64,000 bases of DNA from the NCBI GenBank assembly GCA_030576275.1, contig JALIBN010000012.1:124001-188000 (forward strand), written 5' to 3'. Every line of letters begins with the position of its first letter. Positions within the stretch are counted from its first letter, which is position 1. The position numbers and the translations under genes are program-made. Under the pieces are notes generated by a model, which worked only from the letters and a program-made list of their open reading frames with translations, had not been told where the DNA came from and made no database searches. Positions 19,177 to 37,278 of this stretch are shown in pieces. Source of the stretch: Pseudomonadota bacterium (GTDB taxonomy: Bacteria; Pseudomonadota; Gammaproteobacteria; Nitrosococcales; Methylophagaceae).

Positions 19177-19788
19177 CTAGAGCATGCCTTCCTTAACGAT
19201 AAACGCGATAATGTCAGGTAGGCCTTGGCCTATTTTAAGATTAGTAAAAACATAGGGTCTATCAATTCGCATTCTTTTAGTATCACTGTCCATTACCTCG
19301 AGAGAGGCACCCACATAAGGTGCTAAATCTATTTTGTTAATCACCAGTAGATCTGAACGTGTTATCCCTGGGCCTCCTTTTCTTGGGATCTTTTCGCCTT
19401 CAGCAACATCAATCACGTAAATCGTAATGTCTGCCAATTCTGGACTAAAGGTGGCTGATAAGTTATCCCCACCGCTTTCAATAAAGATTAAATCCAAATC
19501 AGGGAAGGTATCACTGAGATCTTCAACGGCCGCTAAATTCATCGAAGCATCTTCCCTAATCGCTGTATGTGGGCAACCGCCAGTTTCTACACCGACGATA
19601 CGATCTGCAGAAAGAGCTTCACTTTTTACTAAAAACTGAGCATCTTCTTTGGTATAAATATCGTTTGTTACCACGGCTAATTGATAGTCATCACGCATCG
19701 CTTTGCACAAGGCATCAAGCAGTGCTGTTTTACCTGAGCCTACTGGCCCACCGACGCCAATGCGTAAGGGTGCTTTTTTTGCATTCAT
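19177..19788 (-). CDS. ureG: Urease accessory GTPase UreG
   Basis: A 203-residue SIMIBI GTPase. The P-loop is [13 protein letters not shown] near residues 12-24, the metal-binding CPH motif is in [18 protein letters not shown], and the guanine-specificity motif is [12 protein letters not shown]. UreG supplies GTP hydrolysis and nickel for urease maturation with UreD, UreE and UreF. It is the last gene of the amide/urea run, 14 bases after ureF. Confidence 0.97.
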
Positions 19789-19802
19789 ATTTTTTCTCTT
19801 TA

Positions 19803-20477
19803 TCAGGATCTAAATAAACGGGTGTATTGCGTTTCATGACGGCTGCTAGCATAGGCTAAGGCGGGAGCTGAACTGCCAATATTGTCTTCGCTTACGCTTA
19901 ACCCTTTATCGACAGCTAATGCTAACGGTTGGGCTAGATCGCGTAAAATTCGCTGTCCAGCCATTTGCCCTAAGGGGATTAACTTCACGCCCGAAATTAC
20001 AATATTTTCTAACCATGACCAAGCAAAACCTTGTGCACCAAGATGTATGGGAATATTCCACTGACTCAATGCCAATGCAAAACCCGCAGTTTGAGATTTT
20101 GCTAATACCAGTTTCCATTGTTCGGCAAGATCCATATCTAAATCTTGCAATAGCCTTACCATTGCTCTGCCTCGATTCTTCTCTTCTAGTCTAAGTTCAC
20201 TGGTCTCGCGGTGAGCGAGCAGGATATCTATCCAGCGCGATAAGCTTAATTCGTCTTGCGTTTGACAGGCTTGTAGCATTCTAACGAGTAAAGGTATTTC
20301 AAGATATTGCAGATTAGTGTCAATAAGATCCGCTAGCCAATCATGCAACTCTTGCTCAGTATTGACCCACTGGCATTCAACTGCCCATTCGAGCCCTTGT
20401 GAATAGGTAAATCCACCAACAGGTAAGGCGCTACTTGATAATTGCATCAAGCGTATCAGGCTTATATCGACCATCAT
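19803..20477 (-). CDS. ureF: Urease accessory protein UreF
   Basis: A 224-residue helical protein with family landmarks [23 protein letters not shown] at the N terminus, [21 protein letters not shown] and the final [20 protein letters not shown]. UreF bridges UreD and UreG in the activation complex. It lies between a small membrane-protein gene (18 bases upstream) and ureG. Confidence 0.96.
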
Positions 20478-20495
20478 TTTGTCGAAATAACGCGT

Positions 20496-20678
20496 TTAAG
20501 AGCGTTGTTTTACGAATATTCCAATCGCCACTAACACGACGGCGATCGTTAATGGCCATGCATGTTCAGGACTAGCCAAAACATGCCAAATATTTTCCAT
20601 GAATGATGTGCCATGAGCTTCGTGAGCTGAAGCTAAAGTAGGAAATAGTGTGATGAGTAATAAAATAATTTTGTTCAT
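20496..20678 (-). CDS. Small single-span membrane protein inside the urease operon
   Basis: A 60-residue protein with a signal peptide cleaved after LFPTLASA, a short histidine-containing segment (HEAHGTSFMENIWHVL, HAWP) and one transmembrane helix (PLTIAVVLVAIGIFVK) with a basic end. It is flanked by 18-base gaps to ureE and ureF, so it is co-translated with them. The HEAHG start recalls the N terminus of HupE/UreJ-type nickel permeases, but the remaining helices are absent. A role in nickel supply is inferred from context only. Confidence 0.75.
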   Translation of the reverse strand: MNKIILLLITLFPTLASAHEAHGTSFMENIWHVLASPEHAWPLTIAVVLVAIGIFVKQRS

Positions 20679-20696
20679 ATGTATTCTCCATTCATT

Positions 20697-21158
20697 TTAA
20701 TGGTGATGATGTCCGTGGTTATGGCCACTACTTACATTACTACCGTAGGCGCCAGCTTCTGGTTCAAAGGGTACATTTTCAACTTGCACGGTCAATCCTA
20801 ATCCCGTCAGCATATCGTCTAAGACATGATCATGAAGATATTGGATTCGGTTAGGATTAATCTGTAATGCGACATGGCGATTACCGAGATGATAGCAAGC
20901 TCGTGCCATTAACCAAGCATCGTCACAGCTCACTGTAGAAACGGTTTCATTGGCCGCAATGATTTTGACAATGATGCCATCTTCACTCGCTAATACGTCA
21001 CCACTTTGTAGCACTTGACCTCGTTCTAGAAACAATCCCACATCACGACCATCATCTAAGACTGCACGTAGTCGACTTTTAACTCTGCTAGCGAGTGGCA
21101 GCGTTAGTGTCGCTGTTTCTTGTGGTTTATTATTTAGTTTTTTTATTAAATTAATCAT
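20697..21158 (-). CDS. ureE: Urease nickel chaperone UreE
   Basis: A 153-residue metallochaperone. The N-terminal domain has LPLASRVKSRLRAVLDDGRDVG and the C-terminal domain carries YHLGNRHVALQI, where His is the conserved nickel ligand, and the segment YLHDHVLDDMLTGLGL. The protein ends in a histidine-rich tail, SSGHNHGHHHH, that would bind further nickel. It starts two bases after ureC. Confidence 0.96.
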   Translation of the reverse strand: MINLIKKLNNKPQETATLTLPLASRVKSRLRAVLDDGRDVGLFLERGQVLQSGDVLASEDGIIVKIIAANETVSTVSCDDAWLMARACYHLGNRHVALQINPNRIQYLHDHVLDDMLTGLGLTVQVENVPFEPEAGAYGSNVSSGHNHGHHHH

Positions 21159-21160
21159 AT

Positions 21161-22867
21161 CTAAAATAGGAAATAGCGTTGTGCCAGTGGTAATTCCACC
21201 GCTGGCTCGCAGGTTAATAATTCGCCATCAGCAAACACTTGGTAAGTTTGCGAATCGACTTCTATATTGGGTTGGTAATCATTTAAAATCATATCGGCTT
21301 TTTTAATATTTCGGCAATTTTTAACCACGCCGATCATGCTCTTTAAATCGAGTTTTTCGACGATGCCATCTTCTTTTGCTGCTTGTGAAACAAAGGTCAT
21401 TCGCGTTGCATGACGCGCGCCACCAAGATTAGCAAACATCATCCGATAATGAACGGGTTGTGGTGTTGGGATCGATGCATTTGGATCACCCATCGGTGCC
21501 GCGACAATCATGCCGCCTTTAATAATTAAATTTGGCTTGGTGGCAAAAAATGCCGGTGACCACAACACTAAATCGGCTAATTTACCGACCTCAATCGAGC
21601 CTACTTCATGTGAAATCCCGTGTGCGATGGCTGGGTTAATAGTGTATTTAGCGATGTAACGTCTAGCTCGAAAGTTATCAGCATCGGTATTGACATCACT
21701 TGCTAATGGACCGCGCTGTACTTTCATTTTATGAGCAGTTTGCCATGTGCGAATGATTACTTCTCCTACACGCCCCATAGCCTGTGAGTCTGACGCTATC
21801 ATGGAGAAAGCACCTAAGTCATGCAGAATATCTTCTGCGGCAATTGTTTCGCGTCTGATTCGTGATTCAGCAAAGGCGACATCTTCAGCAATATTAGTGT
21901 CGAGATGATGGCAAACCATCAACATATCTAGATGCTCATCGACCGTATTTATTGTATAAGGTCGGGTGGGATTGGTCGATGAAGGCAACACAAATGATTC
22001 GCCACATGCTTTAATAATATCCGGTGCATGCCCACCACCGGCACCTTCAGTGTGATAGGTGTGAATTGTTCTGCCTTTCATCGCCGCTAAAGTATGCTCA
22101 ACAAAACCAGACTCGTTCAGTGTGTCGGTATGAATGGCCACCTGAATATCCATTTTTTCAGCGACCGATAAGCAGTTATCTATCGACGCGGGTGTTGTAC
22201 CCCAGTCTTCATGTAATTTAAGTCCTATAGCACCTGCTCGCACTTGTTCTTCTAAAGGTTCAGGCAAACTTGCATTCCCTTTGCCTAAAAAGCCAATATT
22301 CATTGGTAACTCTTCGGCTGCTTGCAACATGCGATGCATATTCCAGATACCCGGCGTACACGTTGTGGCATTAGTGCCCGTCGCTGGACCTGTTCCCCCA
22401 CCAATCATCGTGGTTACGCCCGACATTAATGCTTCTTCAATCTGTTGTGGGCATATGAAATGAATATGAGAATCTATGCCACCAGCCGTTAGAATTTGAC
22501 CTTCACCAGCGATGACTTCTGTTCCGGGGCCAACCACAATATCAACACCTGGCTGCACATCAGGGTTACCTGCTTTGCCAATGGCGACGATACGACCATG
22601 CTTGATACCGACATCGGCTTTAATAATCCCCCAGTGATCCATGATTAAAGCATTGGTGATCAGGACATCGACTACTTCGGCATCACAGCGTTGGCTTTGA
22701 CCCATGCCATCGCGAATAACTTTGCCGCCACCAAATTTAACTTCATCGCCATAAATCGTACGATCGTCTTCAACTTTTATCCACAGTTCTGTATCACCTA
22801 GACGGATACGATCGCCTGTCGTTGGCCCATACATTTCCATATAAGCTTGTCTGCTAATTGTGGTCAT
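21161..22867 (-). CDS. ureC: Urease alpha subunit
   Basis: A 568-residue catalytic subunit. The nickel ligands are in [14 protein letters not shown] (two His), the lysine that is carbamylated is in [12 protein letters not shown], further ligands are in [13 protein letters not shown] and [14 protein letters not shown], and the flap Cys/His lies in [20 protein letters not shown]. Urea is hydrolysed to ammonia and carbamate in the cytoplasm. Length matches the three-subunit bacterial enzyme. Its start overlaps ureB by four bases and ureE follows after two. Confidence 0.98.
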
Positions 22868-23181
22868 GCTTTATTCTCCAAAACACCCATTACTTCGGCA
22901 TTAAAGCCATAAACCTTGCGATCTCCCGCATAAGCAACCAGCTCAACTTCACGTGTTTGACCTGGCTCAAATCTTACCGCTGTGCCTGCTGCAATATTAA
23001 GTCTGAATCCATAGGTGTTATCCCGCTCAAAGTCCAGAGCTGGGTTGGTTTCAAAAAAGTGATAATGAGACCCTACTTGAATCGGCCGATCACCTTTATT
23101 GGCGACATCAACTACCACCGTGGCACGGCCTGCATTGAGCGTTATCTCACCTTCGGCAACGATTATTTCACCTGGAATCAT
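22864..23181 (-). CDS. ureB: Urease beta subunit
   Basis: A 105-residue subunit with the typical opening [19 protein letters not shown] and the core [18 protein letters not shown], followed by [20 protein letters not shown]. It packs against UreA and UreC in the (abc)3 enzyme. It overlaps ureC through ATGA and follows ureA after 24 bases. Confidence 0.97.
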
Positions 23182-23205
23182 GATTTATTCTCCAGTAGTA
23201 CGCAA

Positions 23206-23508
23206 TTAAACGATGGGATCATGAACGGTCACTAACTTAGTACCATCAGGAAAAGTCCCTTCTACTTGTATCTCATGAATCATTTCGGCAATACCGGTCA
23301 TCACATCATCACGGGTTAATAATGTACGACCATAATCCATTAACTCTGCAACGCTTCTACCATCACGAGCGCCTTCTAAAATAGCAGCACTGATGTAGGC
23401 TATGGCTTCAGGGTGATTGAGTTTTACGCCGCGTAGCTTTCGACGTTCAGCTAATAATCCAGCGGTAAATATAAGTAATTTATCTTTTTCTCTTGGGGTC
23501 AAATTCAT
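23206..23508 (-). CDS. ureA: Urease gamma subunit
   Basis: A 100-residue subunit with the classical N terminus [20 protein letters not shown] and [20 protein letters not shown], ending [17 protein letters not shown]. It is the first structural urease gene, 16 bases after ureD and 24 before ureB. Confidence 0.97.
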
Positions 23509-23524
23509 CTGTATAACCTAGTTA

Positions 23525-24367
23525 TTATGTGGCCCATATTCTTGGTGGACAAGCTTTACGTTCTAAAATGGCGGGTCTTAATACCGTCCATATTCGTGAA
23601 AATAATCGTCGACACTTAGCTGTGGAGTTCCCCAGATAACGGACAACTACGCAGTCTTCTATTAAGGTGGCGGCAATTAAATGTGTATCTTCATCAGCTA
23701 ATATAGCTCTTACCTTTTCTAGTAAATCATTATTAACCGGAGTAGCTACTAACATAGCCATTACAGGATGACCGCGTAAACCTGTGGGCGAATTTAATCT
23801 ATCTGCATTAATCTGCATTCGCTCCATCAATATGGGTACGCCATCCCGGCGAAGTGAAAAATCTAAGCTTAACTGGCCCGTTGTAAACGTTTCATTACTG
23901 GCGGGCAGGCCCAGACAATGTGTTTCCCAGCCAATAAAACGTGCTTTAGCCGCTAAATTAATATGAGTACTCATACGAGCTTGAGCACCAGGAAAATAGA
24001 TGTTTTCTTGGGGAAGCCATTCTAGTGAAGCGTTTTCAGCAACATGTAAATTCTGCTGTTGGTAAGCTGTTTCGCCTTGGCTACGATAAAACTTGGTCGC
24101 GCCAGGCGTGGTTAATAATGTACTCGCATTGGCAAGAACGGATGTGTTGATGGTTATGGTATCGCCACCCACTACACCACCTGGTGGATGAAGGATATAT
24201 AGATGACAGACATCACCTTCTGGGTAAAAAGCTCTTTGAACCGTTAATGGCCCACGTTGACTGCGATGTGACAACACGGTTTTATCACTTCGAAAGGAAA
24301 ACGCCAAATCGAGTTGTGCTTTCCAGCCTGACGGAATAGATTCAGCCAAGCTGTTCATTACGCTCAT
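23525..24367 (-). CDS. ureD: Urease accessory protein UreD
   Basis: A 280-residue scaffold protein. Landmarks are RSQRGPLTVQRAFYPEG, HLYILHPPGGVVGGDTI, TTPGATKFYRSQG and LEWLPQENIYFPGAQ. UreD docks on the apo-urease and recruits UreF and UreG. It begins 39 bases after urtE; ATG at 24367 or at 24358 (MNSLAE) are both possible. Confidence 0.95.
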   Translation of the reverse strand: MSVMNSLAESIPSGWKAQLDLAFSFRSDKTVLSHRSQRGPLTVQRAFYPEGDVCHLYILHPPGGVVGGDTITINTSVLANASTLLTTPGATKFYRSQGETAYQQQNLHVAENASLEWLPQENIYFPGAQARMSTHINLAAKARFIGWETHCLGLPASNETFTTGQLSLDFSLRRDGVPILMERMQINADRLNSPTGLRGHPVMAMLVATPVNNDLLEKVRAILADEDTHLIAATLIEDCVVVRYLGNSTAKCRRLFSRIWTVLRPAILERKACPPRIWAT

Positions 24368-24406: not shown

Positions 24407-25096
24407 TTAAACAGATAGGTATTTGCTTATTTTAGCAACATCGACATCTTTTCTAAGATCTTCATGAATAAACTTTCCTGAATCAATAACAATGAGTCTA
24501 TCGGCGATAGCCATGGTAAAGCTCAATACCTGTTCAGAAACGATAATAGTTATATCACGCATTTGTTGTATTTCATTAAGAATTTTAGCAATATCTTTAA
24601 TGATTGAAGGTTGAATGCCTTCTGTCGGTTCATCAAGTAAAAGTACTTTTGGATTAGTAACCAATGCCCTAGCGATGGCCAATTGTTGTTGTTGTCCACC
24701 CGATAAATTGCCACCTTTACGATGACGCATATCGAACAATACCGGAAACAAAGCATAAATGTCTTCTGGAACTCTTTTAAGACCAGATACCTGCATGCCC
24801 GTTTCAATATTCTCCAGAACACTCAATGTCGGAAAAATCATTCGACCCTGCGGTACATAGGCGATGCCACCGGCAACTCGTTGATGACTTTCATTCTTAG
24901 TCACATCTTCACCATCGATTTTAATACTACCTTCACCTACCTCTAAAATGCCAATTAATGATTTAAAGAGTGTCGTTTTTCCCATACCGTTTCGGCCCAT
25001 AATGGCCAATGTTTCATTCTTTTTTGCCTTAAAGCTAATGCCATGAATGACTTCACTCTGCCCATAGCTCACATGTAAATCGGATACTTCAAGCAT
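24407..25096 (-). CDS. urtE: Urea ABC transporter ATP-binding subunit UrtE
   Basis: A 229-residue LivF-type ATPase. Walker A is GRNGMGKTTLFK, the signature is NLSGGQQQQLAIAR, and Walker B is VLLLDEPTEGIQP. It is one of two ATPases driving urea import through UrtB/UrtC. It is 17 bases after urtD and 39 before ureD, linking uptake and hydrolysis in one run. Confidence 0.95.
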   Translation of the reverse strand: MLEVSDLHVSYGQSEVIHGISFKAKKNETLAIMGRNGMGKTTLFKSLIGILEVGEGSIKIDGEDVTKNESHQRVAGGIAYVPQGRMIFPTLSVLENIETGMQVSGLKRVPEDIYALFPVLFDMRHRKGGNLSGGQQQQLAIARALVTNPKVLLLDEPTEGIQPSIIKDIAKILNEIQQMRDITIIVSEQVLSFTMAIADRLIVIDSGKFIHEDLRKDVDVAKISKYLSV

Positions 25097-25113: not shown

Positions 25114-25860
25114 TTAGTGTCCCAGATAGACTTCAATGACATCAGGATTATTTTGGACTGTTTTCATATCACCTTCGGCAAGAATTTTCCCTTGGTGAAG
25201 TACCGTTACTTTGTGTGCAATTCGGGCAACAAACTCCATATCATGTTCGATTACAAGTACTGAGCGACCCTTACTGATGCGGTTCAATAATTCCGCTGTT
25301 TGTTCTCGCTCTCTAACGCTCATTCCGGCAACAGGTTCATCTAACATCAGTAATTCAGGATCTTGAATTAGTAGCATGCCTATTTCTAGCCACTGTTTCT
25401 GACCATGACTGAGCAAAGCTGCTTCCATGCTCAAAAAATCACCGAGAAAGACTTCATTCGCTATTTCTTTAATACGCGCATCTACTTTATCCGTGCGTTT
25501 AAATGCTAAAGCGCCAAATACCGTTCGACCTTCTGGATACGACACTTCAAGATTGTCGTATACCGAGAGATTTTCATAAATCGATGGTGTTTGAAATTTA
25601 CGTCCAACACCGGCATGAACAATCTGATGCTCAGAAAGTTTCGACAGCTCTTTATTTTTAAATTTGATACTGCCTGATGTTGACTTTGTTTTGCCACATA
25701 TCAGGTCAAGAAGTGTGGTTTTGCCAGCGCCATTTGGCCCAATCACCACTCTTAATTCATCTTTATCAATATAAAGACTTAAGTTATCTACGGCCTTAAA
25801 GCCGTCAAACGAAACCGTTAAGTCTTCAATGGCCAATGCGAAATCGGTATTACTACTCAT
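25114..25860 (-). CDS. urtD: Urea ABC transporter ATP-binding subunit UrtD
   Basis: A 248-residue LivG-type ATPase: Walker A GPNGAGKTTLLDL, a Q-loop region with GRKFQTPSIYENL, the degenerate signature SHGQKQWLEIGM as usual for UrtD, and Walker B LLMLDEPVAGMS. It pairs with UrtE. The urtC gene lies 52 bases upstream. Confidence 0.95.
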   Translation of the reverse strand: MSSNTDFALAIEDLTVSFDGFKAVDNLSLYIDKDELRVVIGPNGAGKTTLLDLICGKTKSTSGSIKFKNKELSKLSEHQIVHAGVGRKFQTPSIYENLSVYDNLEVSYPEGRTVFGALAFKRTDKVDARIKEIANEVFLGDFLSMEAALLSHGQKQWLEIGMLLIQDPELLMLDEPVAGMSVREREQTAELLNRISKGRSVLVIEHDMEFVARIAHKVTVLHQGKILAEGDMKTVQNNPDVIEVYLGH

Positions 25861-25912: not shown

Positions 25913-27070
25913 TCATTTGCTGTCTCTAGCGGGGCTAGTACGCTTACTATTAATCAATGCTTTGGCCGAACTTATAAACTTCATTTTACTAATGCGATTG
26001 AGCTGGGTTTTACCATATTTATCCCAGATACCTGCTAGACCATTAGGAAAGAACATCACAACTGCTATGAATAAGCCACCCATTAAGAATAACCAGATTT
26101 CAGGGAATGTTTCTGAAAATACAGTCTTGCCATAGTTCACAAGTAATGTCCCATACACCACGCCAATAAGTGACATACGCCCACCGACGGCAGCAAAAAT
26201 AACCATCTCAATCGATGGCACGATACCGACAAATGAAGGTGACATGAAGCCTACTTGTAGTGTGAACATTGCACCACCAATTGCGGCGATGATCGCTGAA
26301 ACACAAAAGATAAATATCTTAAAGTTTGATACGTCGTAACCTGAGAAGCGAACCCGATCTTCTTTGTCACGCATGGCTAATAATAAACGTCCAAACTTAC
26401 TGGTCAGAATGAATCGGCTAACTAAAATGACACCAAACAATAGGAAGGCATTGATGAAGTACAGGATATATTTTGATGAATCATCACGAATATCCCAACC
26501 ATGGATGGTTTTTAAATCAGTGATACCGTTAATACCACCTGTATAACCTTGTTGTCCGACAATCAATACCGTAAGAATAACGGCAATAACTTGCGTGATA
26601 ATGGCAAAGTAAACCCCACCTACCCGACGTTTAAACATCGAGTAACCGATAATAAAGGCAAAAATAGCAGGTACAGCAATCACTGCGAATAAGGTAAAAG
26701 TGAAGCTATGAAATGGTACCCAGAACCAAGGTAGTTCGGTAATCTGATTCCAATCCATAAAGTCAGGAATACCCGGTGTTGATTGAATACTGGTACTGAT
26801 CGGATCAGAGGCTTCGAGTTTCAGAAACATGGCCATCGCATAACCGCCGAGGCCAAAGAACACACCTTGCCCAAGGCTTAAGATACCGCCATAGCCCCAT
26901 AATAAAACTAAGCTGACCGCAACAAAGGCATACGTTAGATACTTACCCACCATATTTAATCGAAATAGGTCTAGTGACATAGGTAAAATGATTAAAATCA
27001 ACACGGCAAGGATTGCCATGCCTATCGCCCCATTTTTGCCGCCTAAAAAACGTTCATACATAAAATTCAT
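25913..27070 (-). CDS. urtC: Urea/amide ABC transporter permease UrtC
   Basis: A 385-residue LivM-type permease with about nine or ten transmembrane helices. Landmarks are LLWGYGGILSLGQGVFFGLGGYAM, RRVGGVYFAIITQV and GFMSPSFVGIVPSIEMVIFAAVGG. It corresponds to FmdF of Methylophilus by gene order. It follows urtB after 18 bases. Confidence 0.95.
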   Translation of the reverse strand: MNFMYERFLGGKNGAIGMAILAVLILIILPMSLDLFRLNMVGKYLTYAFVAVSLVLLWGYGGILSLGQGVFFGLGGYAMAMFLKLEASDPISTSIQSTPGIPDFMDWNQITELPWFWVPFHSFTFTLFAVIAVPAIFAFIIGYSMFKRRVGGVYFAIITQVIAVILTVLIVGQQGYTGGINGITDLKTIHGWDIRDDSSKYILYFINAFLLFGVILVSRFILTSKFGRLLLAMRDKEDRVRFSGYDVSNFKIFIFCVSAIIAAIGGAMFTLQVGFMSPSFVGIVPSIEMVIFAAVGGRMSLIGVVYGTLLVNYGKTVFSETFPEIWLFLMGGLFIAVVMFFPNGLAGIWDKYGKTQLNRISKMKFISSAKALINSKRTSPARDSK

Positions 27071-27088: not shown

Positions 27089-28012
27089 TTATTTACGGAC
27101 TTTGTTTGAGAATAGACCTTCGGGGCGCATCATTAAGATAATCACAAGCGTTAATAGCGTTAATACTTTAGCCATTGAACCACTGATGAAAAATTCTAAG
27201 ATTGACTGTGCCTGAGCGATGGTAAAGGCCGATGCGATCGTGCCAAATAAACTTGCAGCACCACCAAAGACGACAACCATAAAGGTGTCAACAATATAAA
27301 GTGATCCTGATGTTGGTCCGGTTGAGGCAATTGTTGTAAAGGCGGCGCCTGCGATACCGGCTATACCGCAACCTAAAGCAAACGTTAAGCGATCTATTTT
27401 CTTGGTGTTGATGCCAACAGCACCACTCATGATTCTATTTTGAGTAGTTGCACGAACAGCTAAACCCCAATTCGATCTATACATCAAAATATAGACACCA
27501 ACCGTAACGACCAGCGTCAAACCTAGAACGAACATACCGTTGATTGGGATATAGATTGATTCTGTTGGTTGATACGCCCCCATTAACCAATCAGGTAATG
27601 TAGGGCTAACTTCACGTGCTCCAAATATTGAACGGAAACTTTGTTGCATAATCAAACTTAAACCCCATGTCGCTAGCAGCGTATCAAGTGGTCTCTTATA
27701 TAAATGTCGTATCAGAATAAACTCTGTGAGATACCCGAGTATCCCCGCGATGACAAAGGAGGCAAGGATCGCAAACAGGAAGTAGTATTGAAGAAACGAG
27801 GGGAAATACGTTTCACTTATAACCGACAATAGATACGTTGTATAAGCACCTACAGCCATAAATTCGCCATGGGCCATATTGATAACGCCCATTTGTCCAA
27901 AAATAATCGCCAGACCGAGTGCCATAAGTAAAAGTACACTAAACAAACTCAAGCCAGCAAAGCCTTGCATGGCAAAAATTGAGGTCAACTCTTGTATTGA
28001 ATACTCACCCAT
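27089..28012 (-). CDS. urtB: Urea/amide ABC transporter permease UrtB
   Basis: A 307-residue LivH-type permease: FGQMGVINMAHGEFMAVGAY near the N terminus, RATTQNRIMSGAVGINTKKID in the middle and VVVFGGAASLFGTI later. It would form the inner-membrane channel with UrtC and corresponds to FmdE by gene order. It is separated from urtA by 126 bases containing a perfect hairpin. Confidence 0.95.
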   Translation of the reverse strand: MGEYSIQELTSIFAMQGFAGLSLFSVLLLMALGLAIIFGQMGVINMAHGEFMAVGAYTTYLLSVISETYFPSFLQYYFLFAILASFVIAGILGYLTEFILIRHLYKRPLDTLLATWGLSLIMQQSFRSIFGAREVSPTLPDWLMGAYQPTESIYIPINGMFVLGLTLVVTVGVYILMYRSNWGLAVRATTQNRIMSGAVGINTKKIDRLTFALGCGIAGIAGAAFTTIASTGPTSGSLYIVDTFMVVVFGGAASLFGTIASAFTIAQAQSILEFFISGSMAKVLTLLTLVIILMMRPEGLFSNKVRK

Positions 28013-28138: not shown

Positions 28139-29374
28139 CTATTGGTAACCTTCAGGGAATGGATTTGGTTCAATCAATTCAGATTCATATACTATTGTTG
28201 CTTGGCCATCTTTGTTCCATTGACCAACCCGAGCTTTACTCCATAAGTGATGGTTAGGATGCAATTTCACGTAACCTTCAGGTGCTGTTGTTAACTCGAT
28301 GTCACCTTTTTCAGATTCAGCAACAACTTTATCGACATCAAAAGATCCAGCTCTTTCGACAGCCGCTTTCCATAACCAAGGACCTAAGTAAGCCGCTTGA
28401 GTCACATCACCTATTACGCTGTCATCACCCCACATTGCTTTAAACTCTTTAACAAATGCAGCATTGTTAGCATTGTCTTGGCTTTGGAAATACTTCATTA
28501 CCGAGTAGAAACCTTCTAAGTTCTCACCACCAATACCTAAAACTTCATCTTCCGTTACTGAAATTGTTAACAGAGTTTGATTTTCACTGGTAATGCCCGC
28601 TGCTTTAAGTTGTTTAAACCAAGCAACGTTACTCCCACCTACTACTGCGGCATAAATTACATCAGGCTTTTTAAGGCGGATTTTATTGATGGTCGATCCA
28701 AACTGTGTGTCACCCAATGGTTTGTAATCTTCACCTACAACTTTGCCTCCCAATACATTTTCAATGTGTTTACGAGCAATTTTCATTGATGTACGCGGCC
28801 AGATGTAATCAGAACCAATCAAATAGAATGTTTTAGCTTCTTTCTCTTTAGCTACCCAATCTAAACCGGCAAGAATCTGTTGTGTTGCTTCTTGACCCGT
28901 GTAGATAACATTATGTGATTGCTCAAGACCTTCATAAAATGTCGGGTAATAAAGCAAGCCATTTTCTTGTTCAAATACTGGCAATGCCGCTTTACGTGAT
29001 GCAGATGTCCAGCAACCAAATACCGCAGCTACTTTATCTTGTACTAAAAGTTTACGAGATTTTTCTGCAAACGTTGGCCAATCACTGGCGCCATCTTCTT
29101 GAATAATCTCAATTTGACGACCTAAAATACCGCCAGACTCATTGATTTGCTTGATCGCTAATTTTTCTGCTTCTTGCGCTCCAGTTTCACTGATCGCCAT
29201 TGTGCCGGTCAGTGAATGCAAAATACCTACTGTCACCGTGGTATCGGTTACAGCCTGACCCGTTGTTGTTGCATCCATCGCCATTGCGCTGGTTGAAATA
29301 AACCCTGCAGCAACCATTGCACTTAGCAATGCCGCCGTTTTACCTAAGAATTTTCTTCGATTAAATTCACTCAT
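28139..29374 (-). CDS. urtA: Urea/short-chain amide substrate-binding protein UrtA (FmdD-like)
   Basis: A 411-residue periplasmic binding protein. The N terminus carries a twin-arginine signal, FNRRKFLGKTAAL, followed by a hydrophobic core and AMA, so export is probably by Tat. The mature protein has TVTVGILHSLTGTMAISE and FGCWTSASRKAALPVFE, typical of UrtA. The second of two adjacent ATGs (29374) is better spaced from AGGAG. By order it corresponds to FmdD of Methylophilus, described as binding short-chain amides and urea. Confidence 0.95.
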   Translation of the reverse strand: MSEFNRRKFLGKTAALLSAMVAAGFISTSAMAMDATTTGQAVTDTTVTVGILHSLTGTMAISETGAQEAEKLAIKQINESGGILGRQIEIIQEDGASDWPTFAEKSRKLLVQDKVAAVFGCWTSASRKAALPVFEQENGLLYYPTFYEGLEQSHNVIYTGQEATQQILAGLDWVAKEKEAKTFYLIGSDYIWPRTSMKIARKHIENVLGGKVVGEDYKPLGDTQFGSTINKIRLKKPDVIYAAVVGGSNVAWFKQLKAAGITSENQTLLTISVTEDEVLGIGGENLEGFYSVMKYFQSQDNANNAAFVKEFKAMWGDDSVIGDVTQAAYLGPWLWKAAVERAGSFDVDKVVAESEKGDIELTTAPEGYVKLHPNHHLWSKARVGQWNKDGQATIVYESELIEPNPFPEGYQ

Positions 29375-29427
29375 CATATATCTCCTGTTGATATAATTTT
29401 TAGTACATTTTTATAAAGTGGTGACGC

Positions 29428-29772
29428 TCAATGTCCCAGCATCCAAGGTCTTGCGGTTTTCTTCGTTTGCATCGATAGGCCGTGTCCTGTAGTTGTTGAG
29501 TTGTCTTTTTCTTTAGATGCCGGTTTGCAACTATGAGAACCTGTGCAGCCACAACTAGACCGTCGTGCTTGTCTAGGTTCATGAGCGGCTTTTTCATTTC
29601 GTTCATGTGCCACTCTCGTTGACGAGCTCACTAGGGCTAAATGAGGCGCAGAAATAATTCTGGGGGCCATTTCTCCACATGATTCACACAACGATGGATT
29701 AGCAGATTCACTCATTTTACGAAGCGCGGTAAACGTTCCGCATGATTCACATTGATAGTCATATAAGGGCAT
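29428..29772 (-). CDS. fmdB: FmdB-family zinc-ribbon protein
   Basis: A 114-residue protein starting MPLYDYQCESCGTFTALRKM, with a second CESCG at about residue 31; the four cysteines form a small zinc ribbon. The C-terminal half is polar and has another cysteine-rich patch, SSCGCTGSHSC. FmdB of Methylophilus was proposed as a regulator of formamidase, but its mechanism is not settled. It lies 13 bases after fmdA. Confidence 0.92.
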   Translation of the reverse strand: MPLYDYQCESCGTFTALRKMSESANPSLCESCGEMAPRIISAPHLALVSSSTRVAHERNEKAAHEPRQARRSSCGCTGSHSCKPASKEKDNSTTTGHGLSMQTKKTARPWMLGH

Positions 29773-29785
29773 CTAATTTCTCCGG

Positions 29786-31009
29786 TTACGATGTAGAGCT
29801 TAAATCTGAACCTGGCATAACCAGTTTCAATGGCCCATCAGCATTGGGGCGGATATCAAAATCAAATATTCCGGTTGGGATCCATAAGGTTGCACAAGCA
29901 TTAGGAATATCAACAATACCGCTGATATGGCCTTCTACCGGTGCTGTACCAAGAATTGAGACCGCCTGTTCACCGGTGTAACCAAATTTTTTCAGATATT
30001 CAATCGCGTTCAGACAAGCTTGTTTGTAGGCCATATTTACATCTAAATAACCTTGTTTTCCTTGCTCATCAACCGAAATACCTTCGAAAATCATATAGTC
30101 ACTGTAATTTGGACTTACTGGACTAGGTTGGAAGATAGGGTTTTTAACACCATATTTTTTAACGCCATCTTTAATCAGTGTCACCTTGATATCTAAGTAC
30201 CCAGCCATTTCAATGGCACCACAGAATGTAATCTCGCCATCGCCTTGAGAGAAATGGAGATCACCCATCGATAGGCCACCATCTTTGACATAGACAGGGA
30301 AAAAGACCTTTGAACCTTTGGTCAGATTCTTAATATCACAGTTACCACCATGTTCACGAGGAGGAACTGTTCTGGCACCTTCTTTAGCTGCTGCTGCCGC
30401 TGCGTCACCTTTTAAACGGCCCATTACAGCGGCTGTTTCGTTTGGCGGTAAGGCTAATGCAGGAACACGATCGGGATCAGTTGCGATTAAGTCACCTTCA
30501 CGTTTATTCCAGGTTTCTAATAACTCGTGAGATGGCAAGCAACCAATTAATCCTGGATGCATGATCCCAGCAAATTTAACATTAGGTACGTGTCGAGATG
30601 TGGTGTAGATACCGTGGAAGTCCCAAATAGATTTTCGTGCATCAGGATAATGGTCAGTTAAAAAACCACCGCCATTTTCTTGAGCAAAAATCCCATTAAA
30701 ACCCCATTGTGATTCATCGAAGGTGCCGACATCTAAGATATCAACAACCATTAAATCGCCAGGCTCAGCACCTTCAACACCTATTGGGCCACTTAGGTAA
30801 TGAACCTGAAGCAAATCAACATCACGGACATCGTCAGCGCTATCGTTGTTACCTATTTGGCCACCGGTCCAATCCATGCATTCAACACGAAATTCATCGC
30901 CGGGTTTGACCATGGAAATCATCGGAAGATCAGGATGCCAACGGTTGTGAATTTGACCGTCCTGATCCCATGGTTTTTTATCTAAATCTAGCTTTACTAA
31001 CGTTTTCAT
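29786..31009 (-). CDS. fmdA: Formamidase
   Basis: A 407-residue enzyme of the acetamidase/formamidase family (FmdA_AmdA). Landmarks include HNRWHPDLPMISMVKPGDEF, TGGQIGNNDSADDVRDVDLL, the active-site region VHYLSGPIGVEGAEPGDLM, and PPREHGGNCDIKNL. It hydrolyses formamide to formate and ammonia in the cytoplasm; formate is then a C1 energy source. It lies 42 bases after the porin gene and 13 before fmdB. Confidence 0.95.
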   Translation of the reverse strand: MKTLVKLDLDKKPWDQDGQIHNRWHPDLPMISMVKPGDEFRVECMDWTGGQIGNNDSADDVRDVDLLQVHYLSGPIGVEGAEPGDLMVVDILDVGTFDESQWGFNGIFAQENGGGFLTDHYPDARKSIWDFHGIYTTSRHVPNVKFAGIMHPGLIGCLPSHELLETWNKREGDLIATDPDRVPALALPPNETAAVMGRLKGDAAAAAAKEGARTVPPREHGGNCDIKNLTKGSKVFFPVYVKDGGLSMGDLHFSQGDGEITFCGAIEMAGYLDIKVTLIKDGVKKYGVKNPIFQPSPVSPNYSDYMIFEGISVDEQGKQGYLDVNMAYKQACLNAIEYLKKFGYTGEQAVSILGTAPVEGHISGIVDIPNACATLWIPTGIFDFDIRPNADGPLKLVMPGSDLSSTS

Positions 31010-31051: not shown

Positions 31052-32170
31052 TTAAAATTGAAGTTGCATGCCGACTACAATAGAATCTGTATCTGCAGCA
31101 TTTGTGACTTCTTGCATTCTGTAAGTCGCTGTTACTGAGGCGTTGTAGCCATCTATGATGTAGTTGACACCAAGGTCAGTACGCTCAGTTTCAATGCCAT
31201 TGTCTGCATCAAAGCTTTGGTATTTGACCATTGGCATAAATTGACCCCAGCCTACTTTCTGATTGAAGATAAAGCCCGCACCAACGGCATAAGCATCACC
31301 TTGTTCACTTAAGAACACATCATCAGTATCGTAGTCGTAATAAGCCGCTTCAAAAGAAATAGCACCCGCGGCTAATTTTTTCTCAATCAACAAGTCCGCG
31401 CCCCATTGACTGTAATCACCCACGTCCGTAGCAGAAGCCGCGCCATCGCCTTTAGAGCGGGCAAAAACACCGACAGTGAATATGTCTTTTGCTCCTAGGT
31501 AGTTACCTGTTCCGTAATAACCAGGTTCTTTATCCCAGAAGCTATATTGCAAACGACCGGCATACATAAGTTCGTCGCTTTGATTAGGATTATTGGTTAC
31601 ATCACCAACACCGCTATAGAAAAAGATTTTGTCAGCTTCAAAGGCACCAAAAGAATAAGCAAGACGTTCATCAAGTGTTGTACCTACAACTGCCACACCT
31701 TCATCACGACCTATCGTTCCGCCATTCCAGCCGTAACGGGCAGCGATGTTCTGCCAATAACCGTCACCTGAGGTGTAATAAGGACCTGCCATGTTGGCAC
31801 GGCTACTTGGTGATAAGAATCGACCTGCCCAGATAGCAAGATCAGGTGTAATCTGGAAAATACCGGCGGCATCGATTACTTTCATCGATTCATCACCATT
31901 CATTTCGGTATTAAACATACCTTTGATGTATTTATTTAAAGAACCGCCAAAATAAAGACGGGCACTATCAAGTGAAAAGTCATTAGAGTTGCCACCATCA
32001 TTTGCAGCATCTTCAACACTACTGAAACTACTACGAAGGCCAAAACCAACGCTGACGTATTTATCTTCACCAAATGTGATTGTTCCGGCCGCTTGTGAAA
32101 TTACTGGTGTCATGCTTGCTATACTTGCTATAGCAATGGCAATTGCTAGGCCTTTGTGTTTGATTTTCAT
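31052..32170 (-). CDS. fmdC: Outer-membrane porin, FmdC-like
   Basis: A 372-residue outer-membrane protein. A signal peptide ends at VISQA, the mature part is rich in alternating aromatic strands (SARLYFGGSLNKYIKG, WAGRFLSPSSRANMAGPYY) and the chain ends in phenylalanine (VVGMQLQF), as outer-membrane barrels do. It has the position of FmdC of Methylophilus, a porin induced by amides and urea. It is the first gene of the minus-strand run that ends at ureG. Confidence 0.9.
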   Translation of the reverse strand: MKIKHKGLAIAIAIASIASMTPVISQAAGTITFGEDKYVSVGFGLRSSFSSVEDAANDGGNSNDFSLDSARLYFGGSLNKYIKGMFNTEMNGDESMKVIDAAGIFQITPDLAIWAGRFLSPSSRANMAGPYYTSGDGYWQNIAARYGWNGGTIGRDEGVAVVGTTLDERLAYSFGAFEADKIFFYSGVGDVTNNPNQSDELMYAGRLQYSFWDKEPGYYGTGNYLGAKDIFTVGVFARSKGDGAASATDVGDYSQWGADLLIEKKLAAGAISFEAAYYDYDTDDVFLSEQGDAYAVGAGFIFNQKVGWGQFMPMVKYQSFDADNGIETERTDLGVNYIIDGYNASVTATYRMQEVTNAADTDSIVVGMQLQF

Positions 32171-32216: not shown

Positions 32217-32374
32217 CTTATAGTTCACTGACTAGCACCGTTGCTGATCAAAGTTGAACTTCAGGAGCCATATTAGAGAGATGTCTCTTAATCTTAAATA
32301 CGTCAAATTGCGTACAAACGATTACAGGGATATGCGGTAGGCTTAGCTTGAAATTTAAAACGGGGAGCATTAAA

Positions 32375-32860
32375 ATGACTGTGAATAAGCAAAAAACCAC
32401 AACCGTATTATTAATGAGCACACTGTTTTTAACGCTAAGTGCTTGTGGTGAATTTAGTTATAAACGTGGTGCGACTGCCACCGAGTTTCAGCAAGAGAAA
32501 AAAAGCTGCTCAACAGAATATACGGCCGAAGTTGACGTTGAGTCATGTTTAGCTAAAAGTGGCTGGATAGTCGTAGGTGTCGATAAACCATTGTTTGCTG
32601 AAGCAACCGCAAGTACAAAGAATGTTGAAACGATTTCTGAGGAAAAATTGATTCCAGAACAAGCGGCTGATCCTCTGGAACTGATAGCTGTGGGATCGTG
32701 GTGGAAAACAGGAGCTGCACCCAATGCACTGTTGGCGGATAGTGAACAATGTGTCGCTGAACTAGGTGAAGGTCATCAGACTCAGAATAATATGAGTTTG
32801 GTCACCAGAGGGTTGATAGGCTGTATGAGGGGTAAAGGCTGGTTTGCTTTAAAACAATAG
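32375..32860 (+). CDS. Lipoprotein of unknown function
   Basis: A 161-residue protein with a lipoprotein signal (TVLLMSTLFLTLSAC). The mature part holds paired cysteines in KKSCSTEYTAEVDVESCLAKSGW, EQCVAELG and IGCMRGKGWF, the last two elements being typical of small lipoproteins with a repeated short-helix motif. GGGGAG lies 7 bases before the ATG at 32375, which is preferred over an upstream TTG at 32348. It sits between the porin and the two-component genes, on the opposite strand. Confidence 0.8.
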   Translation: MTVNKQKTTTVLLMSTLFLTLSACGEFSYKRGATATEFQQEKKSCSTEYTAEVDVESCLAKSGWIVVGVDKPLFAEATASTKNVETISEEKLIPEQAADPLELIAVGSWWKTGAAPNALLADSEQCVAELGEGHQTQNNMSLVTRGLIGCMRGKGWFALKQ

Positions 32861-32927: not shown

Positions 32928-33872
32928 CTAACTAGGTTTTACGTCACCTCTAATAGCATGTAATTTATTTGAGGCGAGTGATGCTGCTGCAGTTCTTGTT
33001 TCAACCCCCAGTTTAACGAAGATATGTTCGGTGTGTTTATTGATAGTTCTGGGGCTGGGGCCGAGAATTTCGCTAATACTTTTATCTGTTTTTCCCAAAA
33101 TCATCCAGTGCAATACTTCGGCTTCGCGGTTTGTTAAATTAAAAATGGCCTTGAGTGCTTCGATTTGAGCGATTTCAGACTCTTCCCGTAATATTATTAG
33201 CCATTGTTCATCATTATGAATGTCGGCAGGATTGAAAAGAAGCTTACCGGTAGGACATTCTACGATAAGAGGTCTAAGCCTTTTCTCGCCCCCAAGATGC
33301 AACTGAGATACCCAGTTATGAAATAGATCTGGCATGCCAGAATCGGGCTGGGCAGCACTTATCATATATTTAGCAATAAGTGACCTTGCCAAAGGTGTTT
33401 GCCAGATAATTTTTCCTGTTTCAGGGAGGACTGCAATTGCTGCCTGACCAAAGGCGTCAAGTGCACCTTGTGTCTGATTGAGTACCCGTGAATTTTGAAG
33501 GTGCGTATTTAAACGAGCGATCACTTCAATCGGGCTGAGCGGTTTAGTGACATAATCAATTCCACCAGATGAAAATCCTGCAACAACGTGCTCTGACTCG
33601 GTAAGACCGGTCATAAAAATAACGGGAATATGGCGTGTATTCAAATCATTTTTTAAGTTGCGGCAGACTTCAAATCCATCCATTTCGGGCATTAATGCAT
33701 CAAGTAAAATAATGTCTGGCGAGACCTTTCGACTGATCTCCAATGCCCGCTTACCACTGTTTGCAATTAATACGGTGTAGCCTGATTCCACTAAAGAATC
33801 ATGTAGCAGTGCCAGCGTTTCAGGAATGTCATCAACGATTAGGACTACTGCATCTTGTTGACCATCAGACAT
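32928..33872 (-). CDS. Response regulator with LuxR-type output domain
   Basis: A 314-residue regulator. The receiver has VLIVDDIPETLALLHDSL, the phosphoacceptor Asp in PDIILLDALMPEMDGFEV and the conserved Lys in YVTKPLSPIEV. A middle segment of about 110 residues resembles a PAS-like domain, and the C terminus is a LuxR helix-turn-helix (LTNREAEVLHWMILGKTDKS and PRTINKHTEHIFVKLGV). The start at 33872 (MSDGQQ) overlaps the kinase stop by 8 bases. Probably the partner of the permease-kinase and a regulator of the fmd-urt-ure genes. Confidence 0.92.
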   Translation of the reverse strand: MSDGQQDAVVLIVDDIPETLALLHDSLVESGYTVLIANSGKRALEISRKVSPDIILLDALMPEMDGFEVCRNLKNDLNTRHIPVIFMTGLTESEHVVAGFSSGGIDYVTKPLSPIEVIARLNTHLQNSRVLNQTQGALDAFGQAAIAVLPETGKIIWQTPLARSLIAKYMISAAQPDSGMPDLFHNWVSQLHLGGEKRLRPLIVECPTGKLLFNPADIHNDEQWLIILREESEIAQIEALKAIFNLTNREAEVLHWMILGKTDKSISEILGPSPRTINKHTEHIFVKLGVETRTAAASLASNKLHAIRGDVKPS

Positions 33873-36800
33873 CGGTAAGCCTCTCTTCAATAAATATTTT
33901 CATACTTTCCAGTTCAAAATTGTCTGTCATTCTACGTATATCAGTAATAAATGGCCCGTAGTCGGTATCTTGTTGAGCTATCTTAGTAATTAGTTTGCGC
34001 ACACCTACTACATATCCCATATCAATCATTTCTAACAGTTGATTGAGGACCTCTCTAGATGGTAATGGAGAATCATTAGCGTTAGATGAAGCTGATATTT
34101 CAGCTATTTGTTCTGGTAAAACCCACTCTAGACTCAGCCGATCGCCGATCCAGTTTATGAGTTCCAATAAATTGACAGGTTTCAGAATAAAATCTTTATC
34201 TGAGACGCCGGATGAATTTTCAAGATTCTTATCGAAAGCATTTGCTGAGATGATTCCTATCAGCACATCGTGTCGATGAACATTTCTGATCAAATGAATG
34301 GTTTCCCAGCCGTCCATTTCCGGCATAGCTAGATCCATGAAAATAATTTCTGGTTGGAACTGCGGGTAGAGTTGCAAACATTCTGCTCCAGAGGCGGCCT
34401 CTTGGACTTCAAAACCCAAAGGCTCAAGAATGTTGATTAAAAGTTCTCTATCAACTGATTCATTATCCACTACCAGTATTTTTCGCTTTGGACCTCTATA
34501 ACCGATCGGCATTCGCATGGTAAGTGCAGACAGTTCTTCTTCAATGATCACCCTTGGCAAGAACAGCCGAACTTTAAATAATGTCCCCACCCCTACTTGG
34601 CTTCCTACATTGATTTCCCCCCCCATTAAGTCAGTCAGTAACTTACTAATGGTTAAGCCTAAGCCAGTGCCTCCCACACCCTTAGATTCGGTACCGCGAA
34701 CAAAAGACTCAAAAATCGTCTCCAACTCGGAAGATTTGATTCCTGGGCCAGTATCCTCGACCTCCATCGATAAAAATTCACGGGCATAATTAAAACGTAA
34801 ATTGATCGAGCCTGTCTGGGTGTATTTAACGGCATTGCCAATAATATTGAGCAATATTTGACTTAAACGTTTCTGATCGGCGCGAACTACGCGTGGAATA
34901 TCTGCACTGATTTTACAGTTAAATTTCAAACCTTTATTAATCGCCTGAAGCTCAAACATACTGATAATATGTTGAATATATTCAGGAAGTCTTAGTGATT
35001 TAACATCAAACCTTAATTTACCATTTTCTATCCGTGCGATATCTAAAGTGCCTTCAATTAATGACAATAAATGATCGCCACTTCTAAGAATAACTTTAAC
35101 GGCATGTCGATTCTTGACCTCATCAGAAGCATTATTATCCAGTAATTGAGCATAACCTAAGATGCTATTAAGCGGTGTCCGTAATTCATGACTAATGCCG
35201 GTAATATAGCGACTTTTAGCCTGATTTGCTTGTTCGGCAACTAACCGCGCTTGCTGTAATTCTTTATCGGTGTGGTCATGCAGTACAATTTCTCGTTGTA
35301 ACAAACCGGTCTGATAATTTGACTCTTGCTGAGCAACTTTTCGGCTTTTTGAAGTCAATATTAGCCACCACACTATAATGCCACTGACCAGTACTAATGC
35401 TGAAAATGCTTTTATAAATGCAGCTCTAAGTTCCAACAAGACATAGGCAGCATTGTCAGTCACGGTTAACTCAATATGTAGGTAAATAAGACCAAAAATT
35501 GATGCGAGCAGCAAAAATGTCAGTACCATCAAAAGCAGGTAATGCCCGATGCCACTATCAATATAGGACCAGGCCGATTTCGGCAATAGCTTCATCATAA
35601 CGGCTTTCCACTGTTCGCTTAATTTGGCGTGTGGCTTACAGGCATCGTCACAACGGACATCAAGACAGCAACACAGAGAACAAATTGGCCCCTGATAGGC
35701 AGGACAATGAGCGATATCGTTAATTTCATATTCCCGCTCACAGATACTGCATATTTCTGTTTTTTTACTCGGATGAAATATGAAGGGTTGTCTCGCTAGG
35801 TAATATTTACCTTTTGTCAGCCACGCTATGGCAGGCGAACAAATCAAAGCGGTTACCATAGCAATAAAGGATGAAAATGCCTGAGCTTCAAGACCAAATA
35901 CACCGATAAATGCCAACACGGAAAAAAAGGATGCAACGACCATTGCACCGACGCCAACGGGGTTAATATCATATAAGTAGGCTCGGCGGAACTCAATTCC
36001 CTTCGGACTAAAGCCTAATGGTTTGTTGATAACTAAATCAGCCACTACCGCCGTAATCCATGCAATAGCAATATTGGAATACAAGCCTAAGACTTGTTCA
36101 AGTGCCTGAAATACATCTAACAGCATGAGCATCGTAGCGATCGCTATATTAAACACTAACCACACCACCCGTCCAGGATGACTGTGTGTCAGCCTTGCAA
36201 AGAAATTTGACCATGCTAATGAACCTGCGTACGCGTTAGTGATGTTAATCTTTATTTGTGATATCACCACAAAAAACACGGTGACAGCCAGTATTATTTC
36301 GGGATTCGAAAAGACATAACTAAAGCCAACTTCATACATATGAGTCGGGTTTACGGCTTCTTCTGGTGACTTATTGACTGTCAATGCGAGATAGGCCAGT
36401 AATACGCCAGCAAACATTTTAAGCATGCCAATGAATATCCAGCCTGGACCTGCTAGAATCACACCCAGATACCAACCGAGTTTATTTTTAGCTGTTTTCT
36501 CAGGCATGAAACGAAGAAAATCCACCTGCTCCCCAACCTGCGGGATCAATGCCATTCCAATACCCACTGCGGTGGCAAACATATAAATATTGAAGCTACT
36601 GTCATAGCCTGATTCACCAGAAAAACTCATCAGACCACGGATGGTTTGAGGTTCTTTGAGCAATATACAGATAAAAGGTAATGCCATGAGAATCAACCAT
36701 ATAGGTTGTGTAATCATCTGGATCTTACTAATTAATGTTACGCCGTGAGTAACAAGTGGAATGATGACAATGGCTGATATTAGATACCAAATATACAAGG

Positions 36801-37278
36801 GTATATCAAAATACATACCTAAGGCATACGCCATAATAACGGCTTCTAAGGCGAATAAAATAAAGGTAAAGGTCGCGTAGACAAACGAGGATATGGTCGA
36901 ACCGATATAGCCAAAACCTGCACCGCGTGTGAGCAAATCCATATCAAGACCAAACTTCGCAGCGTAGTAACTGATAGGTAGGCTGGTCAAAAAAATAATC
37001 AAACTGACAGCAAGAATTGCCCAGAATGCATTCACAAACCCATAATTAATAGCAAGCGTTCCGCCAATAGCTTCTAATACTAAAAACGAGATGGCACCTA
37101 ATGCCGTATTTGAAACACGAAAAATAGACCATTTTCTAAAAGAGTGTGGTGTAAAGCGTAAGGCATAATCTTCTAAGGTTTCATTGCCTACCCACGTATT
37201 GTATTCGCGACGACTTTTAATGATACGCATTGGTGCATTGTGTTCAGGAGGATCTAACAATGCATCATTTGTATTCAA
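33865..37278 (-). CDS. Hybrid sensor histidine kinase with an NCS1 permease input domain
   Basis: An 1137-residue fusion. Residues about 25-490 form an NCS1 (purine/cytosine permease-like) transporter with many helices (GLDMDLLTRGAGFGYIGSTI; LIPQVGEQVDFLRFMPEKT). Residues 510-550 contain nine cysteines including CSICERE and CSLCCCLDVRCDDACK. Two more helices follow, then a HisKA domain with His697 in GISHELRTPLNSILGY, an ATPase domain (VEDTGPGIK; GGTGLGLTISKLL) and a receiver with Asp982 in IIFMDLAMPEMDGW, plus a short helical tail. The design is that of a transporter-kinase sensor, like CbrA but with NCS1 in place of SSS. The ligand may be urea, an amide or a nucleobase. Confidence 0.93.
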   Translation of the reverse strand: MNTNDALLDPPEHNAPMRIIKSRREYNTWVGNETLEDYALRFTPHSFRKWSIFRVSNTALGAISFLVLEAIGGTLAINYGFVNAFWAILAVSLIIFLTSLPISYYAAKFGLDMDLLTRGAGFGYIGSTISSFVYATFTFILFALEAVIMAYALGMYFDIPLYIWYLISAIVIIPLVTHGVTLISKIQMITQPIWLILMALPFICILLKEPQTIRGLMSFSGESGYDSSFNIYMFATAVGIGMALIPQVGEQVDFLRFMPEKTAKNKLGWYLGVILAGPGWIFIGMLKMFAGVLLAYLALTVNKSPEEAVNPTHMYEVGFSYVFSNPEIILAVTVFFVVISQIKINITNAYAGSLAWSNFFARLTHSHPGRVVWLVFNIAIATMLMLLDVFQALEQVLGLYSNIAIAWITAVVADLVINKPLGFSPKGIEFRRAYLYDINPVGVGAMVVASFFSVLAFIGVFGLEAQAFSSFIAMVTALICSPAIAWLTKGKYYLARQPFIFHPSKKTEICSICEREYEINDIAHCPAYQGPICSLCCCLDVRCDDACKPHAKLSEQWKAVMMKLLPKSAWSYIDSGIGHYLLLMVLTFLLLASIFGLIYLHIELTVTDNAAYVLLELRAAFIKAFSALVLVSGIIVWWLILTSKSRKVAQQESNYQTGLLQREIVLHDHTDKELQQARLVAEQANQAKSRYITGISHELRTPLNSILGYAQLLDNNASDEVKNRHAVKVILRSGDHLLSLIEGTLDIARIENGKLRFDVKSLRLPEYIQHIISMFELQAINKGLKFNCKISADIPRVVRADQKRLSQILLNIIGNAVKYTQTGSINLRFNYAREFLSMEVEDTGPGIKSSELETIFESFVRGTESKGVGGTGLGLTISKLLTDLMGGEINVGSQVGVGTLFKVRLFLPRVIIEEELSALTMRMPIGYRGPKRKILVVDNESVDRELLINILEPLGFEVQEAASGAECLQLYPQFQPEIIFMDLAMPEMDGWETIHLIRNVHRHDVLIGIISANAFDKNLENSSGVSDKDFILKPVNLLELINWIGDRLSLEWVLPEQIAEISASSNANDSPLPSREVLNQLLEMIDMGYVVGVRKLITKIAQQDTDYGPFITDIRRMTDNFELESMKIFIEERLTDV

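Follow-up and report, generated by a model that had tools for sequence, protein, structure and literature searches.

A transporter-fused histidine kinase of the NCS1 fold at a formamide/urea locus and its candidate role as a urea and amide sensor

The kinase and its locus

The window analysed here is a stretch of 64,000 nucleotides (positions 124,001 to 188,000 of contig JALIBN010000012.1, GenBank assembly GCA_030576275.1) from a gammaproteobacterium of the family Methylophagaceae, and its element of interest is a hybrid histidine kinase encoded on the minus strand at 33865..37278. The reading frame runs uninterrupted for 1137 amino acids from a TTG start, with AAGG 7 nt before it, and yields a single chain in which a permease half with the fold of nucleobase-cation-symporter-1 (NCS1) proteins is followed by an eight-cysteine linker, two extra transmembrane (TM) helices, and HisKA, HATPase and receiver domains. 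We consider it probable that this transporter-fused kinase senses urea or short-chain amides and, through the response regulator (RR) encoded beside it, activates an amide/urea regulon. No second protein of this kind was found in the 2.37-Mb genome.

Pfam recognises the kinase half alone: HisKA at residues 687-753 (35020..35220, minus strand) with phospho-acceptor H697, HATPase_c at 801-907 (34558..34878, minus strand), and a receiver at 934-1042 (34153..34479, minus strand) with D982, the histidine and aspartate being placed by motif. The complete set of hybrid-kinase elements is therefore present, whilst the permease half goes undetected by Pfam, which accounts for the label "ATP-binding protein" that relatives of the protein carry in public records.

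The 3' end of the kinase gene and the start of the RR gene (32928..33890, minus strand) overlap, and the product of the latter is a LuxR/NarL-type regulator with REC and GerE domains by Pfam. Past it lie one small open reading frame (ORF) on the opposite strand (32348..32860, plus) and then, again on the minus strand, the series fmdC-fmdA-fmdB-urtABCDE-ureDABCEFG. The fmdC-type outer-membrane porin (31052..32170) is porin-like below the profile cut-off and is assigned from its position and its homology to the Methylophilus methylotrophus protein; fmdA (29786..31009) matches the NCBIfam formamidase equivalog at 785 bits, with a cut-off of 500, and the zinc-ribbon protein fmdB (29428..29772) was identified by profile search. 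The urea transporter comprises an FmdD-type binding protein, urtA (28139..29377; TIGR03407 above cut-off), the permeases urtB (27089..28012; TIGR03409 above cut-off) and urtC (25913..27070; profile search and gene order), and the ATPases urtD (25114..25860) and urtE (24407..25096), named after annotated homologues, as was the urease cluster ureD-A-B-C-E-F-G (19177..24367). Formamidase, the UrtA/UrtB components of a urea ABC transporter and urease are all represented by equivalog or curated matches. RNA folding of the interval between the RR gene and fmdC showed nothing unusual.

An earlier note on this DNA, made from the sequence alone, had proposed that an NCS1 domain, a cysteine-rich linker and HisKA, ATPase and receiver domains are joined in one polypeptide, followed by a LuxR-type regulator and lying upstream of fmdC-fmdA-fmdB-urt-ure. 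All of this held, with a permease of full length that only sensitive methods reveal and with the one small opposite-strand frame interposed.

Upstream of the kinase, at 37474-38444, are two ORFs resembling remnants: one encodes an EAL domain without a start (profile positions 68-213 of 236), the other a LuxR regulator whose receiver has lost its first half.

An NCS1-related permease half and a cysteine linker

Identifying the permease domain (residues 37-490; 35809..37170, minus strand) required profile-profile and fold comparison. Searches with phmmer and Pfam gave nothing usable: PF02133 failed to match the window protein even at E 10 and matched none of 30 relatives at E 0.01, and the NCBIfam cytosine permease model matched weakly, over residues 36-203 at E 1.3e-6. 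Profile-profile alignment with hhalign to proteins of the CodB/Mhp1 type reached 99.3 % (E 4.8e-20, 378 columns). An AlphaFold2 model of residues 1-660 (mean pLDDT 77, pTM 0.80) retrieved CodB and Mhp1 first in Foldseek (ranks 1-5), and VIA-align gave Z 36.2 against CodB and 31.4 against Mhp1, with the next fold at 24.4 and the SLC5 folds (SiaT, CHT1, DUR3) lower, at about 22-23. Profile homology and fold ranking together establish that the permease half is NCS1-fold and NCS1-related, yet no standard member of the family. The nearest kinase-free NCS1 protein sharing its motifs VEDYA and QIRINVMNLYSGS is followed by a nitrilase-superfamily gene (locus L162, 8985-10439) and is possibly of the ancestral type.

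Pocket residues were mapped from the roles described for CodB, in which W108 and F204 sandwich the base and T278/T279 of TM8 serve the sodium (Na2) site (PMC9379551), through the hhalign alignment at ~19 % identity, with conservation read in 107 relatives. On this alignment the stacking W108 falls on L141 (L or F among the relatives) and F204 on I245 (I, V or M), and the aromatic pair that marks an NCS1 pocket is not retained. Both Na2 hydroxyls are likewise gone: T278 corresponds to K343, a lysine in 107 of 107 relatives, and T279 to I344 (I or V), and judging from the alignment the lysine looks like a replacement for sodium. N345 is invariant in the same 107, E145 and Q247 never vary among the rows that extend over them, and the TM1 glycine of CodB, Gly29, is kept as G61. 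As the mapping rests on so low an identity, a shift of one residue in TM8 is possible. The comparison with characterised NCS1 structures that the earlier note suggested thus upheld the fold and the homology, whereas the stacking aromatics and Na2 hydroxyls proved not to be kept.

Four genomes carry two copies of the kinase, one at fmdA-urt genes and the other at ure or ure-urt genes. Across these, residue 141 (F or L; the CodB stacking position) and residue 409 (G or larger) tend to track the linkage, where by a rough estimate about 0.05 columns would be expected to change by chance in clades A, B and D; this is suggestive only of the two positions as putative specificity determinants.

The permease is followed by the linker (residues 500-550; 35629..35781, minus strand), modelled with zinc-ribbon-like strands, whose cysteines C510, C513, C525, C533, C536, C537, C543 and C547, in the pattern CxxC...C...CxxCC...C...C, rank among the most conserved residues of the protein; it is probably zinc-bound. 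Two further TM helices come next and continue as a long signalling helix (residues 577-659; 35302..35550, minus strand; helices 577-605 and 608-659 in the AlphaFold2 model). With its eight cysteines, short strands, two long helices and lack of a Pfam match the linker looks unlike STAC, although a STAC-specific model was not applied. A profile of the linker, searched in 249 genomes, matched almost exclusively these kinases. The idea of a mix-and-match module was dropped because, one chain aside, the linker was absent from other kinds of kinase in those genomes. That chain, in genome G316 (L174, 5842-7710), is a permease-less kinase whose cysteine tail and TM pair are similar, and adjoins an iron-type alcohol dehydrogenase gene. 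A relative in Bombella has a permease without a kinase; it terminates inside a shortened cysteine linker and adjoins urease genes.

Linkage among relatives and a palindromic promoter box

The earlier note had named a survey of homologues for linkage to amide and urea genes as the test that could refute it, and the outcome was favourable. In an even sample of 398 proteobacterial genomes, less biased than a scan of GTDB contigs, relatives of the kinase occurred in about 55 (~1 in 7). The surroundings of 55 kinases were fetched: 54 have urea/amide ABC (urt), fmdA or urease genes no more than about 9 kb away, whilst those of the remaining one (L131) are cut by a contig end. A LuxR-type RR adjoins the kinase in 53 of the 55. 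Most of the 57 loci from the pattern scan of GTDB contigs also lie near urt, fmd or ure genes. The kinase was further found in 342 Klebsiella plasmid records and in Acinetobacter baumannii; on the Klebsiella pneumoniae plasmid pGN4539-1 (L173) the kinase, a copy of the promoter box described below, urtABCDE and formamidase stand alongside clpK and fec genes.

Within the window's own genus the kinase is present in 8 of 29 genomes and urtA in exactly those 8 (p 2.3e-7, kinship ignored); ureC accompanies it in 7 and fmdA in 6, whilst none of the three genes occurs in the other 21. In one genome of the genus (G013) the same kinase and RR are followed by a canonical urtABCDE and urease, with no fmdA. 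In a tree the window kinase belongs to a clade of urea-linked sensors with full support; the Oxalobacteraceae members of that clade have no fmdA anywhere in the genome, and this favours urea as the common ligand of the clade.

Alignment of the sequences upstream of fmdC revealed a palindrome with consensus TACGY-N6-RCGTA, represented in the window by TACGCAATTTGACGTA (32299..32314, minus strand) in the fmdC promoter; it is the probable binding site of the partner RR. Scanning 2.25 Mb of kinase loci returned 95 matches; 93 of them precede fmdC, urtA, fmdA or the kinase gene at a distance of 36-204 bp (median 107), against a mean of 2.15 and a maximum of 5 in Markov shuffles. Exact boxes occur in 81 of 106 loci that bear the RR, with several further loci at one mismatch, and in none of eight loci that lack it, where a single near match lies at a contig edge. 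Among loci from a plasmid collection 10 of 13 have a correctly placed box; of the three exceptions one is urease-only, one has no LuxR-type RR, and the third is the unlinked kinase of Sinorhizobium meliloti pSymB.

In the window the 24th nt past the box is the first of a -10-like TAATAT (32270..32275, minus strand), and this offset is conserved across loci: among promoters of structural genes 18 of 56 have TAnnnT at exactly this distance, against an average of 0.7 at other offsets, and among those of the kinase 25 of 57, against 1.3. The fixed offset puts the centre of the box near -43, which would be the usual position of a class-II activator. Genome-wide, M. methylotrophus has 7 matches, and the three that fit the central consensus precede the kinase, fmdC and amiE, an aliphatic amidase gene; in the Burkholderiales genome G274 the top-scoring box outside the kinase loci again precedes amiE. 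Neither amiE site took part in the discovery of the box.

Several further features of these loci may be recorded here. A small lipoprotein-like gene (CGE(F/L)SYK...) diverges from fmdC across the box, both in the window (the plus-strand ORF at 32348-32860) and in M. methylotrophus (L230, 2331-2939), and may come under the same regulation as fmdC. An alphaproteobacterial branch (L058, L145, L148 and L243) has a shorter kinase of about 875-895 amino acids and keeps fmdA, without the LuxR-type RR or the box; L243 also encodes an AmiS/UreI channel, and in L058 a second REC-HisKA-HATPase protein follows the kinase. Kinase frames are broken after ~380-416 amino acids in L018, L055, L056 and L063 and near the start in L064, reflecting either sequencing error or decay.

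Ligand, mechanism and known systems

Taken together, these observations suggest the following course of events. Urea (or formamide or acetamide) would bind in the central NCS1 pocket and toggle it between open and closed states, a movement that the cysteine linker and the extra pair of TM helices could relay through the long signalling helix to HisKA. Phosphate would then pass from H697 to the LuxR-type RR, possibly by way of D982 in the fused receiver, and the phosphorylated RR, bound to TACGY-N6-RCGTA, would act as a class-II activator of fmdC-A-B-urt(-ure), of its own kinase-RR operon in many species, giving positive autoregulation, and of amiE where present. The direction of signalling, and activation rather than repression, are inferred here, and both transport by the NCS1 domain and the label 'transceptor' remain putative.

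The earlier note had listed urea, formamide, allantoin and purines as reasonable ligands. Urea and formamide are retained, with urea as the candidate shared across the window's clade; two observations speak against allantoin and purines: the linked genes concern only urea and acyclic amides, and both NCS1 stacking aromatics are gone. The proposed ligand class thus derives from gene context and the lost aromatics. More broadly, we lean slightly towards the view that these proteins form a large unnamed family of kinases whose NCS1-fold domain serves to recognise acyclic C1 nitrogen compounds (urea for the clade of the window, formamide for clades with fmdA only), with a lysine replacing sodium and paralogues of one genome discriminating between urea and amides.

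Several points weigh against sensing of urea or amides through this pair. Firstly, fmdA and ure are both linked to the window kinase, and urea and formamide are inseparable there. Secondly, the residue mapping from CodB could be off by one in TM8. Thirdly, a urease-only clade (L114, L116, L120, L122, L161 and L235) has kinase and RR without the box, and no alternative box was found when one was sought by alignment. Fourthly, the box could be owned by another regulator that shares the locus. Finally, within the stretch examined the Sulfurimonas kinase L053 and that of S. meliloti pSymB, L241, lack both linkage and box, and their ligand may therefore differ; the L241 kinase-RR pair is next to dctA-dctBD, and the adjoining 3.4 kb contain neither the box nor any urt gene that was recognised.

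The competing explanation that survives best, although we regard it as unlikely, leaves the regulon as it is and reduces the NCS1 fold to a membrane scaffold, the stimulus being external ammonium, nitrogen status read by the linker (as a redox or metal sensor), or contact with the Urt ABC transporter. Expression of fmd in M. methylotrophus is indeed ammonia-repressed as well (PMC10781810), Ks-Amt5 keeps a transporter fold without transport (PMC8534201), and the window family combines highly conserved linker cysteines with missing Na2-type hydroxyls. Against this, the invariant residues include pocket-lining ones (E145, Q247, K343 and N345) and not those of the scaffold alone; Bombella retains the permease next to urease genes in a form without a kinase; and certain loci have urease or fmdA without urt genes nearby.

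More doubtful again is that kinase and box are both real but unpaired, with another nitrogen regulator on the box and the RR acting elsewhere or as an anti-activator. The pairing is deduced from sequence, and certain clades do have the RR and no box; but the box also fronts the kinase-RR operon in many species, even alongside a box at fmdC (L018, L055, M. methylotrophus), the kinases without a LuxR-type RR (L058, L145, L148, L243) are also without a box, and both the length of the palindrome and its position at -43 fit an activator of the LuxR/NarL type. A larger NCS1-type ligand (allantoin, hydantoin, a purine or cytosine) that is degraded to urea, so that the sensor anticipates urea, is very improbable: CodB and Mhp1 are the closest folds and characterised bacterial NCS1 substrates are all N-heterocycles save metformin (PMC13390362), but among the genes recognised in the loci read, where fmdA, urt, ure and amiE recur, none is for allantoin, purines or hydantoin, and the two base-sandwiching aromatics are now aliphatic or reduced to one Phe. 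GrtK, an ammonia sensor of Burkholderia, was set aside as a counterpart, having a PilS-like domain instead of a permease.

Sensing of urea or amides by the NCS1-kinase would make it a widespread and so far unrecognised sensor, and, if correct, the first NCS1-type receptor and the first bacterial urea transceptor. The open-licence literature yielded no description of a kinase with an NCS1 domain, of a sensor kinase for urea or of a two-component system for fmd/urt genes, though an earlier report elsewhere is possible; the palindrome TACGY-N6-RCGTA is new, as is the kinase as a variant among transporter-fused kinases. Such fusions have been described as rare (PMC13022988), yet this one is common, given its frequency in the sampled proteobacterial genomes, the hundreds of Klebsiella plasmids that carry it and its presence in A. 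baumannii. The box promoter, at about 150 bp, offers a ready read-out for the ligand and for distinguishing transport from sensing.

The closest parallels are CbrA of Pseudomonas and the SLC5/STAC kinases CrbS and RpuS, which likewise unite a LeuT-fold transporter and a histidine kinase in one chain, have a second regulator nearby and control the uptake or catabolism of small nutrients. Their build appears to differ, with SLC5, STAC and usually PAS domains in place of NCS1, an eight-cysteine linker and two TM helices, as do their ligands (histidine, acetate and pyruvate, rather than the proposed urea or amides). CbrA carries a lysine in its Na2 site (PMC13022988), to which the invariant K343 of the window kinase also maps, although the lysine of CbrA comes from another sequence position. 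Ks-Amt5 of an anammox bacterium similarly fuses a transporter domain that senses a nitrogen compound to a histidine kinase (PMC8534201), but has the Amt fold, ammonium as ligand and no linked urea/amide operon. CodB and Mhp1 share fold and profile similarity with the window permease at an identity of about 16-18 %; in the window protein, which is joined to a kinase and escapes PF02133, the aromatic sandwich and Na2 hydroxyls are replaced. The NCS1 metformin transporter MetT shows that this scaffold can accept an acyclic, urea-like (guanidine) compound (PMC13390362), although MetT is a stand-alone transporter, unlike the kinase-fused protein described here. Lastly, fmdCABDEF of M. methylotrophus is formamide- and urea-induced, and a review of that system mentions no more than a putative positive regulator whose gene lies inside the cluster (PMC10781810). 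The operon is of the same type as that in the window and the type strain possesses this kinase, RR and box, making the pair a candidate for the missing regulator behind the classical induction of fmd by formamide and urea.

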